Shown here in pieces: positions 21,744 to 40,794 of a DNA stretch of 64,000 bases (the first letter of the stretch is position 1; every line of letters begins with the position of its first letter). The notes beneath the pieces were generated by a model. That model was given only the letters and a program-made list of their open reading frames with translations. It made no database searches and was not told where the DNA came from. The position numbers were made by a program, and so were the translations under genes. Source of the stretch: Saxibacter everestensis (GTDB lineage Bacteria; Actinomycetota; Actinomycetes; Actinomycetales; Brevibacteriaceae); the NCBI RefSeq assembly GCF_025787225.1, contig NZ_CP090958.1, positions 1,703,856 through 1,767,855 of the forward strand, in the 5' to 3' direction.

Positions 21744-24086
21744 CTACCCAGCCTGGGCTGTGTTGCTGGCCCGGGCTGTGTTGGTGACCTGGGGCTTGTT
21801 GCTCGGGCCAGCCGTCTCGGCAGGGTTAGCTGTGTCGTTCGGGTCAATGGCGTCGTTGGCCTCAACCGTGTCGGCCGGGCTGGCCGCATCAGCCGTGTCG
21901 TCCGGCTCAGCGGTGCTGTTCGGGTCAACATGACCGTTGGCCTCAGCGGTGTCAGCCGAGTTAGCCGTGTCGTCCGGCTCAGCGGTGCTGTTCGGGCCAG
22001 CCGTCTCGGCAGGGTTAGCTGTGTCGTTCGGGTCAATGGCGTCGTTGGCCTCAGCCGTGTCTGAACGAAGCGCTACAGAGATCGCTTCCGCAAGCTTCGG
22101 GCCGATGCCCTCGACTGCTGTAATTGCTTCGGGTGTTGCCGCACGAATCTTCTTCACGGACCCGAAGTGTTTCAGCAGTGCCTTCTGCCGGGACGCGCCG
22201 AGCCCCGGCACATCATCCAATGAACTACGGGTCATGGCTGTGCTGCGCCGTTTGCGGTGGAAACTGATTGCGAAGCGATGCGCCTCGTCGCGGAGGCGCT
22301 GGAGCAGGTAGAGCCCCTCACTGCCTCGCGGCAGGATTAGCGGGAACTCGTCATCGGGAACCCAGACCTCCTCAAGCCGCTTGGCCAGCCCGCAAATTGC
22401 GACGTCGGTTATGCCGAGATCGCTGAGTGCCCGCACCGCCGCCGCCACCTGTGGCGGCCCACCATCGACCACTAGCAGGTTGGGCGGATAAGCGAAGCGC
22501 TTTGCCATGCCCCGTTCGGCCGGTGAATCGATTTCCTCGACCGCCGCCGCAGCAATAGCGACCCGGCTGATCCCACTGGCCGAGTCGTCGGCGGCTGAGC
22601 CGGCATCGGAGGAATCGGCAGTCGACTGCTCGCTCGCGAGTTCTGCTGCCCGGGTCTCAGCGTCGGCCTCCGCCGCCATGACATTCTGTTCGTTCTCCAG
22701 GTAGCGGCTGAAGCGTCGGGAAAGCACGTCGTACATGCTCGCCGTGTCGTCCCTGGCCGCCTCGTTACGGACAATAAAGCGGCGGTACTCGGACTTCCGC
22801 GCCATCCCGTCCTCGAAAACAACCATCGAGGCGACCACATTGCTGCCCTGGGTGTGCGAAACGTCGAAGCACTCGATCCGCAACGGTGCGTCATCGAGGC
22901 CGAGAGCCTCCTGAATCTCCTGCAGCGCCTGGCTGCGGTTCGTCAGGTCTCCGGCGCGGCGGGTCTTGTGCAACACCAGTGCGTGCTTGGCGTTCTGCTC
23001 GACGGTTTCCATCAGGTTTCGCTTGTCGCCGCGCTGCGGGATCCTGATATCAACCTTGGCGCCCCGGCGCTGGCTCAGCCAGGCCACCACTTCGTTCGCG
23101 TCCGGCGGCAGGTGCGGAACCAGTACCTCCCGGGGAATCGATTCCGCCTCCGCCTCGCCGTATACCTGCTGCAGCAAGTGTTCGACCAACTCCGCCGGAC
23201 TGGCATCCTCGACTCGCTCCACGACCCAGCCGCGCTGACCCCGGATCCTGCCTTGCCGGACGTGGAAGACCTGCACAGCGGCTTCGAGCTCATCGTCGGC
23301 GACGGCGAAGATATCGGCGTCGGTTGAATCGTTGAGTACGACAGCGCTCTTGTTCAGGACCTTCTTCAGGGCGTCGAGATCATCCCGGAGCCGGGCTGCG
23401 CCCTCGAAATCAAGCTCCGCGGCGGCTTCCTTCATCCGGCGTTCCAGCTGCCCGATGAATTTGCCCGTTTGCCCGCCCATGAAGGCACTGAAATCGTCGG
23501 CCAGCGTGCGGTGATCCTCCGGGCTGATCCTTCCCACGCACGGAGCCGCGCACTTGTCGATGTAGCCCAGCAGGCACGGACGGTTCGCACGCTGCGCGCG
23601 CTTGAATACGCCCGGTGAACAGGTTCGGATCGGGAATACTCGCAGCAACAGGTCCAGTGTCTCCCGAATCGCCCAAACATGCGTGTACGGCCCGAAGTAT
23701 TTGACCCCCTTCTTCTTTGCGCCACGCATTACCTGGGCGCGGGGGAACTCGTCGCCGAGTGTGACAGCGAGGTACGGATAGGATTTGTCGTCGCGGAACT
23801 TTACGTTGAACCGCGGCTCGAACTCCTTGATCCAGGTGTATTCCAGTTGCAGCGCTTCGACCTCGCTGGATACCACGGTCCATTCGACTGAGGCGGCCGT
23901 GGTGACCATGGACTGGGTTCGGGGATGCATTCCGGCCAGGTTGGCGAAATAGGAGGTCAGCCGGGAGCGAAGGTTCTTCGCCTTGCCCACGTAAATGACG
24001 CGACGATGCGAATCCCTGAATCTGTACACCCCCGGCAGATTCGGGATCTCCCCGGTCTTGGGACGATAGGTCTGCGGGTCAGCCAC
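21744..24086 (-). CDS. uvrC: Excinuclease ABC subunit C with extended low-complexity tail
   Basis: Nuclease subunit of nucleotide excision repair that cuts both sides of a lesion after UvrB loading. 780 residues from GTG 24086. Domains: GIY-YIG nuclease (GVYRF...[14 protein letters not shown], residues about 19-43), cysteine cluster, UVR motif (about 205-235), RNase H-like C-terminal nuclease ([20 protein letters not shown]) and tandem HhH ([26 protein letters not shown]). An Ala/Ser/Asp-rich insert lies inside the second nuclease. The last ~90 residues are an acidic Thr/Asn/Ala/Asp-rich repeat tail absent from typical UvrC. The start overlaps the HAD stop by eight bases, so the much longer open frame to 24389 is rejected. 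Confidence 0.95.
21803..22061 (-). repeat. 70-bp direct repeat pair in the uvrC 3' tail
   Basis: 21803-21872 and 21992-22061 are 70-bp copies with one mismatch, 189 bp apart (63 codons), both in frame. They encode [20 protein letters not shown]-like segments. Shorter related units (gtgtcgtccggctcagcgg) lie between them. Confidence 0.9.
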
Positions 24087-24933
24087 TTGCGCTCGATCCT
24101 GTCTTGTCTTGCAGGCTAGTCTCGTCGTGCAGGCTAGTCTCGTCGTGCAGACTGGCCTCGCCGTGCAGGCTGGCCGCGTCGTGCAGACTGGCTTCGTCGT
24201 GCCGGCTGGCCTCGTCATGCAGGCGGGTTTCGTCGTGCAGCTGAGGGAACCGCGCAGCCAGGATTGCCGCAAGTTCGTCCGCATCGCCGGCAATGGCCAC
24301 GGCGCCTGCGGATTCAAGTTCGCCCGCCGCCGCGAAACCCCAGCCGACACCCACGCAATCCAGACCGTGCTCGGCCGCGCCAGACACATCGTGCCGGCGA
24401 TCGCCGATCATCACGGCGTCCCGGGCATCCGACAGCGAGTACTGGCCAAGCACCGCAGCAATCACATCCGCCTTCGTCCGCGGCGCTCCATCGACGACAT
24501 CACCTTCCACCAGGTCGAAGATATCGAGACCGCCATGCATCTGCAGAATCTGCACGGCGAACTGCCGGAGCTTCGAGGTAGCTACCGCAACGATTGCGCC
24601 GCGGGACCGCAGCTCCCGGGCAAGGTCAAGCACCCCTGGATACAGGCTCGTCGCCGCCGGTCCGTGCTCCGAGAAGTACGCCCGGTAATACTCCGCGCCT
24701 CGGGCTGCGAGTTCCGGAGTCATCCCGGGCAGACTCAGCAGATTCTGCAACAGCGGCGGCCCGACGAAGCTACACAGCACGGCTGCGTCAGGTTCTGGCC
24801 GGCCGAGTTCGCGCAGCGCATGGAGCATCCCCGCAGCAATCCCCTGGCCCGGGTCGGCGATAGTGCCATCCAGGTCGAAGAGAATCAGCGGACGTTCGGC
24901 ACTGATCGTCGTCTGCAGCGCACGCAGCGTCAC
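24079..24933 (-). CDS. HAD-family hydrolase with repeat C-terminus
   Basis: Haloacid-dehalogenase-type phosphatase resembling phosphoglycolate phosphatases. 284 residues. Motif [11 protein letters not shown] (residues about 18-27), motif [10 protein letters not shown], motif [18 protein letters not shown], and a helical cap. The ordinary fold ends near residue 230; then come LHDE(T/A)S hexapeptide repeats. The GTG start overlaps the uvrA stop (GTGA) and the end overlaps uvrC. It is therefore translationally coupled between two excision-repair genes, suggesting, by inference only, clean-up of a sugar- or nucleotide-phosphate by-product of repair. Confidence 0.9.
24111..24236 (-). repeat. 18-bp tandem array, seven units, in the HAD 3' end
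   Basis: Seven consecutive 18-bp units from 24111; the first two are identical (gcaggctagtctcgtcgt) and the others differ at one to four bases. In frame on the minus strand they encode hexapeptides of type LHDETS. The array ends about 25 bp before the uvrC start region. Confidence 0.93.
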
Positions 24934-27905
24934 GCCAGGACCTCCGCGAGGAACTTGCCGGTGTAGCTGCCCGCAACTTTGGCAACCTCCTCCGGGGTCC
25001 CCTCGGCGATAATCCTTCCACCTCCACGTCCGCCCTCGGGACCGAGATCGATAACGTGGTCTGCATTCGCAATCACGTCGAGGTTGTGCTCGATCACCAG
25101 CACGGTATTCCCCTTGTCGACGAGTCCCTGCAACACAATCAGCAGCTTTCTGATGTCCTCGAAGTGCAATCCGGTTGTCGGCTCGTCAAGAACGTACACA
25201 GAGCGACCGTTTGATCGTTTCTGCAGCTCGCTCGCCAGCTTCACCCGCTGAGCTTCTCCGCCGGAAAGCGTTGTTGCCGGCTGGCCAAGCCGCACATAAC
25301 CGAGACCGACGGAAACCAGCGTCTTCAGGTGCCGGGCGATCGGCGGCACGGCAGCGAAGAACTCCGAGGCCTCCTCGATCGGCATGTTGAGCACATCGGC
25401 AATGGTCTTCCCCTTGAAATGGACTTCAAGGGTCTCCCGGTTGTACCTCGCGCCATGGCACACCTCGCAGGGTACATAGACGTCGGGAAGGAAGTTCATC
25501 TCAATCTTCAGAGTTCCGTCGCCCTTACACGCCTCACAACGGCCGCCTTTGACATTGAACGAGAACCGTCCAGGCAAGTAGCCGCGCACCTTAGCCTCGG
25601 TTGTCTCAGCGAACAACTTGCGCATGTGGTCGAAGACACCGGTATAGGTCGCCGGATTGGATCGCGGTGTGCGGCCAATCGGGCTTTGGTCGACGTGGAC
25701 CACCTTGTCCAGATGCTCCAGGCCTTTTACCGCCTTATGCCGGCCCGGCACCCGGGAAGCGCCATTGAGCTGGTTGGCCAGCGTTGTGTAGAGGATGTCA
25801 TTGACCAGGGTTGACTTCCCCGAACCAGAAACTCCGGTAATCGCCGTCAGCACGCCGAGCGGAAATTCCGCCGTGACGTTCTGCAGGTTGTTCTCATGGG
25901 CCCCGGTCACCACCAGTCGGCGGTTGGCATCCTTGGCCCGTCGTTTCTCCGGAACCGGAATGCTGCGCCGCTTGGATAGATATGCCCCGGTCAGTGACCG
26001 TTCCGCCTCGAGCAGTCCTGGAACCGGGCCCGAGTACACGACTTCTCCGCCGTGCTCACCAGCGCCCGGCCCGATGTCTACGATCCAGTCGGCGATGTTG
26101 ATCGTGTCCTCGTCGTGTTCGACCACGATCAGCGTGTTGCCAAGGTCGCGCAGCCGGGTCAACGTGTCGATCAGCCGGTGATTGTCGCGCTGATGCAGTC
26201 CGATTGACGGCTCATCCAGCACGTACAACACGCCAACAAGTCCGGATCCGATCTGGGTGGCCAACCGGATCCGCTGCGCCTCCCCGCCGGAGAGCGAGCC
26301 GGAGGGCCGATTCAGGGAGAGATACTCCAGCCCGACATCCAGGAGGAAGCCGAGGCGCGCATGGATTTCCTTCATAACCTGGGCGGCGATCTTCGTATCA
26401 CGCTCGGAAAATGCTATGTCGGCGAGGAAACGCGCCGACTCGTCCAGCGGCATGGCACACACATCCGCGATCGACTTTCCGCCGACCAGAACGGCCAGCG
26501 ACTCAGGTCGCAGCCGGGTGCCGTTGCAGACCGGGCACGGGATCTGCCGCATGTAGCCTTCATACCGCTCCCGGGCATAATCCGACTCGGTCTCGGAGTG
26601 CTTCCGGTGGATGTACGGTGACACACCTTCGAAACCGGTTGTGTATGAGCGTTCCCGGCCGAACCTATTCCGGTACTGGACGTGAACCTTATAGTCCTTG
26701 CCGACCAGGATGGCGTTCCGCTGACGTTTCGTGAGGTCCTTCCACGGCGTTGTCATCTCGAAGCCGAGTTCCTCGGCAAGACCAGTCAGCAACCGGTTGA
26801 AGTACTCGGCCGTGCCCGGACCGATCGACCAGGGCACGATCGCGCCCTCGATAATGCTGAGCTCGTCATTTGGCACGATGAGCGTCTCATCAACTTCCAG
26901 CCGAGTACCGATACCGACGCACTCCGGACAGGCTCCGAACGGGGAGTTGAAGGAAAACGTGCGCGGCTCGATCTCGTCCAACGCCAACGGGTGCTCGTTC
27001 GGGCAGGCCATGTGTTCCGAGAACTGGCGCTCCCGGTGTGGCGACTCCGCTTCAATGTCAACGAAGTCGGCTACCAGTTGCCCGCCGGCCAGGCCAAGAG
27101 CGGTCTCCACCGAGTCGGTGAGTCGCTGCCGGGCGGACTTCTTCACAGCGAGCCGATCAACCACAACACTGATGGTGTGCTTGATCTGCTTCTCCAGTTT
27201 CGGCGGGCTCGACAATTGCACGAGCTCACCGTCGACGATCGCCCGGGCGTAACCCTTGGACTGCAACTCGGCGAAGACATCGACGAATTCGCCCTTGCGC
27301 GCCCGCACTATCGGGGCCAGCAGCTGGAACCGGGTCCCATCCTCCATCGCCAGCAGCTGATCGACGATTTGCTGCGGCGTCTGCCGGGTGATCGGCTCAC
27401 CGCAGACCGGACAGTGCGGTTTACCGGCACGGGCCCAGAGCAGGCGGAGATAGTCGTATACCTCGGTGATCGTGCCGACGGTTGACCGTGGGTTGCGGCT
27501 GGTCGATTTCTGGTCGATGGATACAGCGGGAGACAGTCCTTCGATGAAATCGACGTCCGGCTTGTCCATCTGGCCGAGGAACTGCCGCGCGTAGGCCGAC
27601 AGCGACTCGACGTAGCGGCGCTGGCCTTCGGCAAAGATCGTGTCGAATGCCAGCGAGGATTTTCCGGAGCCGGAGAGCCCGGTGAAGACGACGAGTGCAT
27701 CTCGCGGGATGTCGATGTTGATATTCCGCAGGTTGTGTTCCCGGGCGCCACGGACCGAAAGCGTGTCGGTCAGCGATCCGGCCTGCGAAGGAACCGGCAG
27801 CGTTGACTCAGCTGCTGAGCCAGCTAATGATTGGGCCGATTCCACGAATGCTGCGGGTCCTCCGGCAGGGCCCGCGGCAGCTATTGTGCGCTTCTTAGTA
27901 GTCAC
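24930..27905 (-). CDS. uvrA: Excinuclease ABC subunit A
   Basis: Damage-sensing ATPase of nucleotide excision repair. 991 residues with two ABC modules: Walker [10 protein letters not shown] (about 75-83) and GVSGSGKST, signature motifs [15 protein letters not shown] and [14 protein letters not shown], and two zinc-finger modules (CPVCGEPI...; CEACKGDG...CEVC). The N-terminus is about 45 residues longer than in E. coli. GTG 27905 is supported by a promoter whose -10 box lies exactly six bases before it, implying a leaderless transcript. HAD and uvrC follow with overlapping codons. Confidence 0.97.
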
Positions 27906-27911
27906 GGTTCC

Positions 27912-27934
27912 ACTCTATGACGCGGCACTGACAG
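27912..27934 (-). promoter_or_regulatory. PafBC/RecA-NDp-type promoter of uvrA
   Basis: On the minus strand: CTGTCAGTG (27934-27926), eight bases, then TAGAGT (27917-27912), then six bases and the GTG start. It matches the mycobacterial LexA-independent DNA-damage consensus tTGTCRgtg-N8-TAnnnT. The same architecture precedes uvrB. Confidence 0.8.
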
Positions 27935-27957: not shown

Positions 27958-27963
27958 TACACT
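27958..27963 (+). promoter_or_regulatory. -10 element of the metallo-beta-lactamase-fold gene
   Basis: TACACT ends exactly six bases before the ATG at 27970, so transcription should begin at or beside the start codon. The 64-bp gap holds this promoter and the divergent uvrA promoter. Confidence 0.6.
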
Positions 27964-38550: not shown

Positions 38551-38650
38551 GGCCCAGTCCAGGCGTGACCGGGCCGAGCGAACCCAGTCCGGGCACGCTG
38601 GCGGCCAGCCGCGACCAGTCCAGGCGTCCCCGCTAGGCGTGACCGGCCGA
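38551..38650. repeat. Degenerate repeats around the uvrB stop codon
   Basis: aggcgtgaccgggccga (38561-38577) recurs as aggcgtgaccggccga (38635-38650), which overlaps the uvrB stop and last codons. Between them cccagtccaggcg-like segments occur near 38553, 38583 and 38613. The rest of 38441-38632 holds no gene. Confidence 0.65.
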
Positions 38651-40765
38651 TTTCATCTGGCGTAGCTCCTTCTTCAATTCGGACAGTTCGTCGCGCAACC
38701 TCGCCGCCAGCTCGAACTGCAGCTCGGCTGCGGCGCCGTGCATCTGTTCGGTCAGCTGGGTGATCAGATCTGCGAGATCGTTGGCAGGCAGCTCCGCGAG
38801 CTTGCCGGTTCGAGCGTGTCCCTCGCCGGGCACCGGAACCTTCCGGCGGGTGGCGGCGTCCGCGAGCAGTTCCGCGGTGTCGGCGTCTTCCCGGCGGAGC
38901 GAATCGGTGATGTCGGCGATCTTTTTGCGAAGCGGCTGGGGGTCGACGCCTTTTTCCAGGTTGTAGGCGACCTGCTTCTCCCGGCGGCGATTCGTTTCTT
39001 CGATCGCGAACTGCATCGACGGCGTTACCCTGTCGGCGTACATGTGCACCGCACCCGAGACGTTTCGGGCCGCCCGCCCGATCGTCTGAATCAGCGAGGT
39101 CGACGAACGCAGGAAACCTTCTTTGTCCGCGTCGAGAATGGCAACCAGTGAAACCTCCGGCAGGTCGAGTCCCTCACGCAGCAGGTTGATCCCGACCAGG
39201 ACGTCGAATTCGCCGCTGCGCAGTTCGCGAAGCAGCTCGACCCGCCGCAGTGTGTCGACATCGGAGTGCAGATACTGCACCCGCACGCCGTGCTCAAGGA
39301 AGTAGTCGGTCAGGTCCTCGGCCATCTTCTTGGTCAGTGTCGTGACCAGGATGCGTTCGTTCTTCGCCACCCGAGCGTGAATTTCGCCCAGCAGGTCGTC
39401 GATCTGGCCCTTGGTCGGTTTGACCACCACCTCCGGATCGACCAGACCCGTCGGCCGGATAATCTGTTCGACGAAGCCATCGGACTGGCCCATCTCGTAC
39501 TTCCCCGGCGTCGCCGACAGGTACACCCGCTGGCCGATCCGATCCAGGAACTCCTCCCAGCGCAGCGGCCGGTTGTCCATCGCACTCGGCAGCCGGAAAC
39601 CGTGCTCAACCAAGGTGCGCTTCCGGGACATGTCTCCTTCGTACATTCCGCCGATTTGCGGGACTGTGACATGCGACTCGTCGATCACTAGCAGGAAGTC
39701 TTCCGGGAAGTAGTCCAGCAGGCAGTTTGGCGCAGATCCTTTTTCCCGGCCATCGATGTGCCGGGAGTAGTTCTCGATGCCCGAGGTGAAGCCGACCGAC
39801 TGCATCATCTCGAGGTCATACGCAGTCCTCATCCTTAGCCGCTGAGCCTCAAGCAGCTTGTTCTGCTTCTCAAGTTCGTCGAGCCGCTCCTGAAGTTCGG
39901 CCTCGATCGCGGTCACCGCACGGTCCATCCGCTCAGGGCCCGCAACGTAGTGGGACGCCGGAAAAACATGGATGGTTTCTTCGTCGCGCACGATCTCGCC
40001 TGTCAACGGATGCAGTGTGTACAACTTGTCGACTTCGTCGCCGAAGAACTCGATCCTGATGGCGAGTTCCTCGTACTGCGGGATGATCTCGACGGTGTCG
40101 CCACGGACCCGGAACGTGCCTCGGGTGAACGCCATATCGTTTCGGGAGTACTGCATCGACACGAAGTGCCGGAGCAGGTCGTCCCGGCTGACCTCGTCGC
40201 CGACGTTGAGCGTGACCATCCGGTCCACGTACTCCTCGGGCGTACCGAGGCCGTATATGCAGGAAACAGTCGAGACCACGACGACATCCCGCCTGGTCAG
40301 CAGGGCGTTGGTGGCCGAGTGCCGGAGCCGCTCAACCTCGTCATTGACCGACGAATCCTTTTCGATGAAGGTGTCGGTTTGCGGTACATACGCTTCCGGC
40401 TGGTAGTAGTCGTAGTACGAAACAAAGTACTCGACCGCGTTGTTCGGCAGGAGCTCACGAAACTCATTGGCCAGCTGCGCTGCCAGAGTCTTGTTCGGCG
40501 CCATCACGAGGGTAGGACGTTGCACCTGTTCGATCAGCCAGGCAGTCGTCGCCGATTTTCCGGTTCCGGTGGCGCCGAGCAGCACGACATCCCGTTCGCC
40601 TGCCGACAGCCGCTCGGTCAGCTCCTTGATCGCTGTCGGCTGATCACCGGACGGCGAGAAGTCACTGATCACCTCGAACGGTGCCACGGTACGCGTCACA
40701 TGCGGACGGTGCCCGATCTTCGGCAGTGGCCGGGTAGCGTCCGTCATCGTGTCATCTCTGCTCAT
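38633..40765 (-). CDS. uvrB: Excinuclease ABC subunit B
   Basis: DNA-damage-verifying helicase-like subunit loaded by UvrA and acted on by UvrC. 710 residues. Walker [14 protein letters not shown], beta-hairpin region with [26 protein letters not shown] (motif II), [34 protein letters not shown] (motif VI), and C-terminal UVR motif ([19 protein letters not shown]). ATG 40765 is chosen because the -10 box lies exactly six bases upstream, as for uvrA; ATG 40771 and 40747 are alternatives. Single-gene unit controlled by a damage-type promoter. Confidence 0.97.
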
Positions 40766-40771
40766 ACTCAT

Positions 40772-40794
40772 ACGCTACGCGCTGGCACTGACAG
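40772..40794 (-). promoter_or_regulatory. PafBC/RecA-NDp-type promoter of uvrB
   Basis: Minus strand: CTGTCAGTG (40794-40786), eight bases, TAGCGT (40777-40772), six bases, ATG at 40765. A 16-bp core, gcactgacagtcaccg, is shared exactly with the uvrA upstream region. Matches tTGTCRgtg-N8-TAnnnT. Confidence 0.8.

Follow-up and report, generated by a model that had tools for sequence, protein, structure and literature searches.

The closest described counterparts of the promoter analysed here are the mycobacterial RecA-NDp/PafBC promoters, whose consensus is printed as tTGTCRgtg-N8-TAnnnT (PMC5656591). UvrABC and recA are given as members of the PafBC regulon in M. smegmatis, and the motif is described as extending to other actinobacteria (PMC8223512). 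In the mechanism presented for M. smegmatis, PafBC is located between region 4 of sigma-A and the -26 element (PMC11804915).

The spacing to the start codon relates the locus to the leaderless mRNAs of mycobacteria and Streptomyces, whose 5' end follows TAnnnT at a distance of about 6 nt; for S. lividans, initiation is reported at 6.3 nt after the -10 (PMC8079986). Among damage-response genes, a leaderless start was shown experimentally for lexA of M. tuberculosis (PMC2897130). Unlike the uvrA gene studied here, M. tuberculosis lexA is regulated by LexA and not by PafBC.

The uvrA promoter site and its probable operon

In the window, the whole 64,000-nt stretch of DNA that was analysed, the minus strand reads CTGTCAGTG-CCGCGTCA-TAGAGT at 27934-27912, followed by GGAACC and then GTG (27905-27903). 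In agreement with the preliminary description, all specified positions of the consensus are matched except the first T, which is a C here. Its second claim, that no GAAC-N4-GTTC LexA site lies upstream, also holds: GAACNNNNGTTC with up to one mismatch does not occur between 27033 and 28521, and no LexA-like box is found within 600 bp upstream of uvrA. The locus shares with the mycobacterial promoters the arrangement TGTCRGTG-N8-TAnnnT, the repair genes downstream and a genome encoding both PafB and PafC. It differs from them in its start codon only 6 nt past the -10, in the lack of a LexA box near uvrA and in the first base. As this base is C, not T, in 23 of the 33 sites with spacer 8 found in the genome, the apparent mismatch reflects the genome's own preference. 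The site and the genes downstream are as follows.

27926..27934, minus strand: PafBC recognition element CTGTCAGTG (-26 element), a motif match
27912..27917, minus strand: -10 hexamer TAGAGT, 8 nt past the recognition element, a motif match
27905, minus strand: predicted uvrA transcription start at the G of GTG (leaderless), placed 6 nt past the -10 and by the ATG/GTG peak at +6/+7 over the 33 own-genome sites
24930..27905, minus strand: uvrA, 991 aa, GTG start (NF001503/TIGR00630)
24079..24933, minus strand: HAD-family hydrolase gene, 4-nt overlap with the uvrA stop
21744..24086, minus strand: uvrC, likely GTG start at 24086, 8-nt overlap with the HAD end

The uvrA product matches NCBIfam NF001503 with 1560.6 bits. 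The start of the HAD gene overlaps the uvrA stop within GTGA, and the GTG of uvrC at 24086 lies inside the end of the HAD gene. The overlaps of 4 and 8 bases make one transcript likely, and from them uvrA, the HAD gene and uvrC are likely to be co-induced. A sigma-70 scan called no minus-strand promoter at the uvrA site, which is expected since the -35 box is absent.

We consider it very probable that the uvrA promoter is PafBC-dependent, belongs to the RecA-NDp class and fires on the GTG, giving a leaderless mRNA, and that it probably also serves the HAD gene and uvrC. Our confidence comes mainly from the enrichment of the motif, the presence of pafB and pafC and the recurrence of the site within the family. 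Upon DNA damage, single-stranded DNA would activate PafBC, a step transferred from M. smegmatis by homology. The activated PafBC, lying between the -26 element and region 4 of sigma-A, would enable RNA polymerase to transcribe from a promoter that lacks a -35 box. Initiation about 6 nt past TAGAGT would then fall on the GTG and yield a leaderless uvrA mRNA, with ribosomes starting at its 5'-terminal GTG. For uvrA we infer, within this scheme, promoter activity, the transcription start and leaderless translation as well as damage induction, PafBC dependence and RecA independence. As a PafBC promoter, the uvrA site is well supported and of an ordinary kind, and PafBC control of uvrA is already known from mycobacteria; what deserves further attention is how PafBC promoters are phased to start codons across the class.

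Two further features were noted at this locus. The C-terminus of the HAD protein carries a six-residue repeat (like LHDEAS), encoded by an 18-bp tandem repeat of 7.5 copies at window positions 24106-24240. On the other side of the promoter, an MBL-fold gene diverges from uvrA.

27958..27963, plus strand: -10 TACACT of the divergent MBL-fold gene, whose ATG (27970) follows after 6 nt; a PafBC element at the appropriate distance is absent

With its arrangement TACACT-N6-ATG, this gene and uvrA have two predicted leaderless starts back to back, 64 bp apart.

The motif and its regulator in the genome

With up to two mismatches allowed, the window contains 8 motif matches against 2.66 expected, and none of 100 shuffles reaches 8. 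In the whole 4.05-Mb genome, TGTCRGTG-N7..9-TANNNT is found 35 times, compared to 4 times for the pattern read backwards. The spacer is 8 in 33 of the 35 matches, and the reversed spacer-8 control gives a single one. Given this genome-wide enrichment, the uvrA site is unlikely to be a chance match.

The genes downstream of the sites were named by family scans, with mfd, dnaE and gyrB/parE entering the scans as fragments. Nine of the 33 sites precede genes of repair or replication, namely recA, uvrA, uvrB, dinB, mfd, a rarA-like ATPase, dnaE, gyrB/parE and an AlkZ-like glycosylase, while ten precede eight DUF222 genes. The other 14 lie before DUF3000, YgjP-like, two GNAT, glyoxalase-like (2 sites), ABM, NmrA-like, ABC-transporter, 2Fe-2S and Rv2525c-like genes, before a 59-codon frame, or before nothing convincing. 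Four matches lack a convincing gene start in their vicinity and probably arose by chance, namely L017 and L029 with spacer 8, L019 with spacer 7 and L039 with spacer 9; L017 and L029 are kept in every count of 33. The excision-repair genes carrying the motif in the window are uvrA and uvrB, the latter with the following features.

40772..40794, minus strand: second PafBC site in the window, CTGTCAGTG-N8-TAGCGT, 6 nt to the uvrB ATG
38633..40765, minus strand: uvrB, 710 aa, predicted leaderless (TIGR00631)

PafB (L045:4012-5004:-) and PafC (L045:3040-4011:-) come from two distinct genes that lie side by side and share their strand with pafA and a 20S proteasome alpha gene, all within 7 kb. They match the Arthrobacter PafBC structure 6SJ9 with E values of 1.5e-60 and 4.8e-64, respectively, and also match chains of 7P5X and 9FND. 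For M. smegmatis PafB, the variants R181A, Y196A and R181A/R204A/R208A are reported to have lost the binding of single-stranded DNA (PMC11804915). In an alignment to chain AY of 7P5X, the positions of R181, Y196, R204 and R208 are occupied by R, Y, R and R in the protein encoded here.

The preliminary description had proposed a PafBC-type promoter for uvrA, a reading tied to the presence of pafBC in the genome and to further copies of the motif at recA and uvrB. Both regulator genes are present and sites were found before both repair genes, and the reading is supported; the leaderless consequence of the spacing is an addition made here. With this, what mycobacterial work has established on the PafBC damage response is extended to another actinobacterial family, together with a concrete gene list.

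Across a class sample of 148 genomes, in which PafB was scored as present at E <= 1e-20, the 138 PafB-positive genomes contain 1863 motif matches (control 67), or 13.5 per genome, with a distribution confounded by clade. The 10 PafB-negative genomes contain 25 (control 5), and the four of them that are at least 90% complete contain 3 (control 1). Exceptions occur both ways: five PafB-positive genomes (G041, G047, G083, G146 and G152) have no match, and the incomplete PafB-negative genomes G096 and G052 have 13 and 6. Two of the four complete PafB-negative genomes come from family f29, in which even the PafB-positive members reach no more than 1-4 matches. Because of the confounding by clade and these exceptions, the relation between motif number and PafB presence fits but is weak.

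By its motif, the multicopy DUF222 family is placed under a putative PafBC-type damage promoter. The genome has 13 DUF222 genes (loci L156-L169), one of them with an HNH match, and the strict motif is found at 8. At three further loci (L166-L168), TGTCAGTG is combined with an imperfect -10 (GAGCAT or CAGCAT) and an ATG 6-7 nt on. Two DUF222 genes (L020 and L041) are preceded by a tandem pair of PafBC sites, 93 bp apart. The family presumably resembles the mycobacterial 13E12 repeat family. At L032, the rarA-like gene with its PafBC site diverges from the glyoxalase-like gene. Two copies of the latter occur 540 bp apart, one truncated and one intact, and each carries a PafBC site. The 59-codon frame at L027, whose ATG follows a PafBC site after 6 nt and which has a weak DUF5795 match below the curated cut-off, possibly encodes a small damage-induced protein.

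Phasing of the motif to start codons

Of the 33 own-genome sites, 18 have an ATG or GTG at +6 (9 sites) or +7 (9 sites) after the -10. No ATG or GTG occurs at +3, +4, +5, +8, +9 or +10, and positions +0, +1 and +2 account for 4, 3 and 1 sites; at +6/+7, TTG is never found and CTG once. One of the 18 phased sites, at 1826995, opens only a 17-codon frame, apparently a truncated duplicate. In 39 genomes, the relatives and our own, the motif with RTG at +6/+7 was found 210 times, against once for the control. The 148 class genomes have RTG at +6/+7 in 959 of 1888 motif matches, compared to 5 of 72 in the reversed control and 5-6% expected from base composition alone, while CTG or TTG is present there in 41. 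The phased fraction varies, from 90 of 133 in the own order (10 genomes) and 233 of 490 in family f34 to 1 of 18 in genome G141. The contrast between RTG and YTG at these positions agrees with M. smegmatis, for which only ATG or GTG is reported to initiate at the leaderless position (PMC4633059).

Judged from start-codon phasing, about half of the PafBC regulon looks leaderless. Published leaderless fractions are 26% of the genes with a primary start in M. tuberculosis (PMC3898074), and 17% and 21% in S. lividans and S. coelicolor (PMC8079986), although these values refer to other genomes and other definitions (for M. tuberculosis, a start within 5 bp). Unlike these 17-26% of transcripts, about half of the PafBC motif matches fit the leaderless arrangement, and PafBC promoters would, if this is true, fire on the start codon at about twice the published genome-wide fraction. 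A mapped case to the contrary is the mycobacterial RecA-NDp operon of Rv1955, with a leader of about 50 nt (PMC2897130). A link between leaderless mRNAs and PafBC was not found in the open-licence literature searched.

We lean, with some reserve, towards the broader view that the PafBC regulon may be largely leaderless by design, coupling the sensing of single-stranded DNA to leaderless translation, and that the control of uvrA may switch between PafBC and LexA-type elements while the core is kept. If true, repair proteins could be made without Shine-Dalgarno initiation under damage. Should RNA data confirm the bias, one could test whether leaderless translation is favoured in damaged actinobacterial cells. 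The phasing also offers a check on start-codon annotation, in that an ATG or GTG 6-7 nt past a PafBC -10 is probably the true start.

The uvrA start and upstream regions in related loci

Core homology of UvrA begins near residue 46, which leaves residues 1-45 as an extension. Ahead of the core block, the window has in-frame ATG, GTG or TTG at codons 1 and 21 only, so that one of the two must be the translation start. Many named loci have a GTG 93 nt before the core block; in the window and in L127, CTG stands there. Codon 21 is a GTG with GGAGGA 12 nt before it, and the extension lies outside the conserved profile, both of which would suit a PafBC-type promoter giving a leadered mRNA translated from codon 21, with the spacing to the first GTG being incidental. 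We regard this as improbable, since the same exact phasing is common to 18 of 33 sites, L127 from another genus retains the GTG at +6 although its extension is different, and a codon periodicity runs from the first GTG onward in related loci.

The periodicity was determined for 14 closely related loci of equal extension length, 13 from one related genus of the family and L047, named Brevibacterium; four more loci of the former genus, whose extensions have a different length, were left out, two with and two without the element. Pairwise differences in this set amount to ~8% in the 30-nt motif plus spacer versus ~55% in the preceding 35 nt (ungapped), a conservation that is partly due to choice because the loci were picked for equal extension length. 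For codons 2-14 after the GTG, variation by codon position is 0.119, 0.120 and 0.291, thus highest at the third (column-shuffle p = 0.018, uncorrected for ancestry).

The upstream regions were compared in 30 loci of relatives, the own included; 38 genomes had a strong uvrA match, and 30 of them yielded a locus. TGTCR-N11-TANNNT with a GTG at +6/+7 precedes uvrA in 17 of the 20 own-family loci (own included) and in 2 of the 10 loci outside the family (L129 and L134). The own-family upstream region closely resembles that of the Brevibacterium contig L047, a resemblance that suggests the order and family taken here as those of the window. With the element present, the start in L131 and L133 is at +70 and +8, respectively; in L136, the motif reads TGTCC and a start at +6/+7 is lacking. 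L132, a truncated contig in which uvrA is not preceded by a normal upstream region, was scored as a miss. In seven of the 30 loci (L128, L130, L135, L147, L148, L149 and L150), TANNNT-N6/7-GTG is found without the element. These loci, such as L128 and L130, show that a -10 at 6-7 nt from the GTG can exist at uvrA on its own, as it would in an ordinary sigma-A promoter consisting of a -10 only, with TGTCAGTG present by chance and uvrA constitutive. With 33 spacer-8 matches against 1 control per genome and the recurrence of the element in the own family, such a promoter is a very unlikely explanation of the window site. Judged from few loci, the control element of uvrA appears to change, with the core promoter and the start codon being kept. 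A strict rule that loss of the element at uvrA means loss of pafBC was rejected, as G012, G020 and G035 lack the element and yet have PafB; likewise, in L148 and L150 the element is absent before uvrA although PafB is present. In these two loci, the palindrome CGAATATATATTCG and no PafBC element precedes the leaderless uvrA start.

Of 80 named actinobacterial uvrA loci, 79 were used, L084 having no recognisable core; in L046 and L091 the available DNA starts no more than 14 bases from the gene, and for lack of upstream sequence they were scored as misses. TGTCR-N11-TANNNT lies at most 450 bp before the core block in 52 of the 79. In seven of these, from Brevibacterium, Piscicoccus, Mobilicoccus, two Cellulomonas, Ornithinimicrobium and one Nocardioides, it is followed by a start codon at +6/+7, and in two more Cellulomonas loci by one at +8; by look-up, Piscicoccus, Brevibacterium and Ornithinimicrobium belong to the Micrococcales. 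Sixteen named Streptomyces loci have TGTCAGTGGCT-N5-TANNNT before uvrA and are similar to the window in this respect. Unlike in the window, their first in-frame ATG or GTG is mostly 42-48 nt on (14 of 16; 56 nt in L104 and 9 nt in L086), and for this reason they look leadered.

The same loci bear on a control of uvrA by LexA, besides or in place of PafBC. Mycobacterial uvrA is listed under both pathways (PMC8223512), and exact GAAC-N4-GTTC is present upstream of uvrA in 2 of the 30 relatives' loci (L135 and L147, with a one-mismatch form in L149) and in 4 of the 79 named loci. For uvrA of the window, where the search at up to one mismatch gave no such box between 27033 and 28521, we attach very little weight to LexA control and retain PafBC as the likely regulator. 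In four Cellulomonas loci (L051, L052, L053 and L056), a one-mismatch LexA-like box (GAAC-N4-GTGC) is located just upstream of the PafBC element, and dual control of uvrA by the two is possible there.
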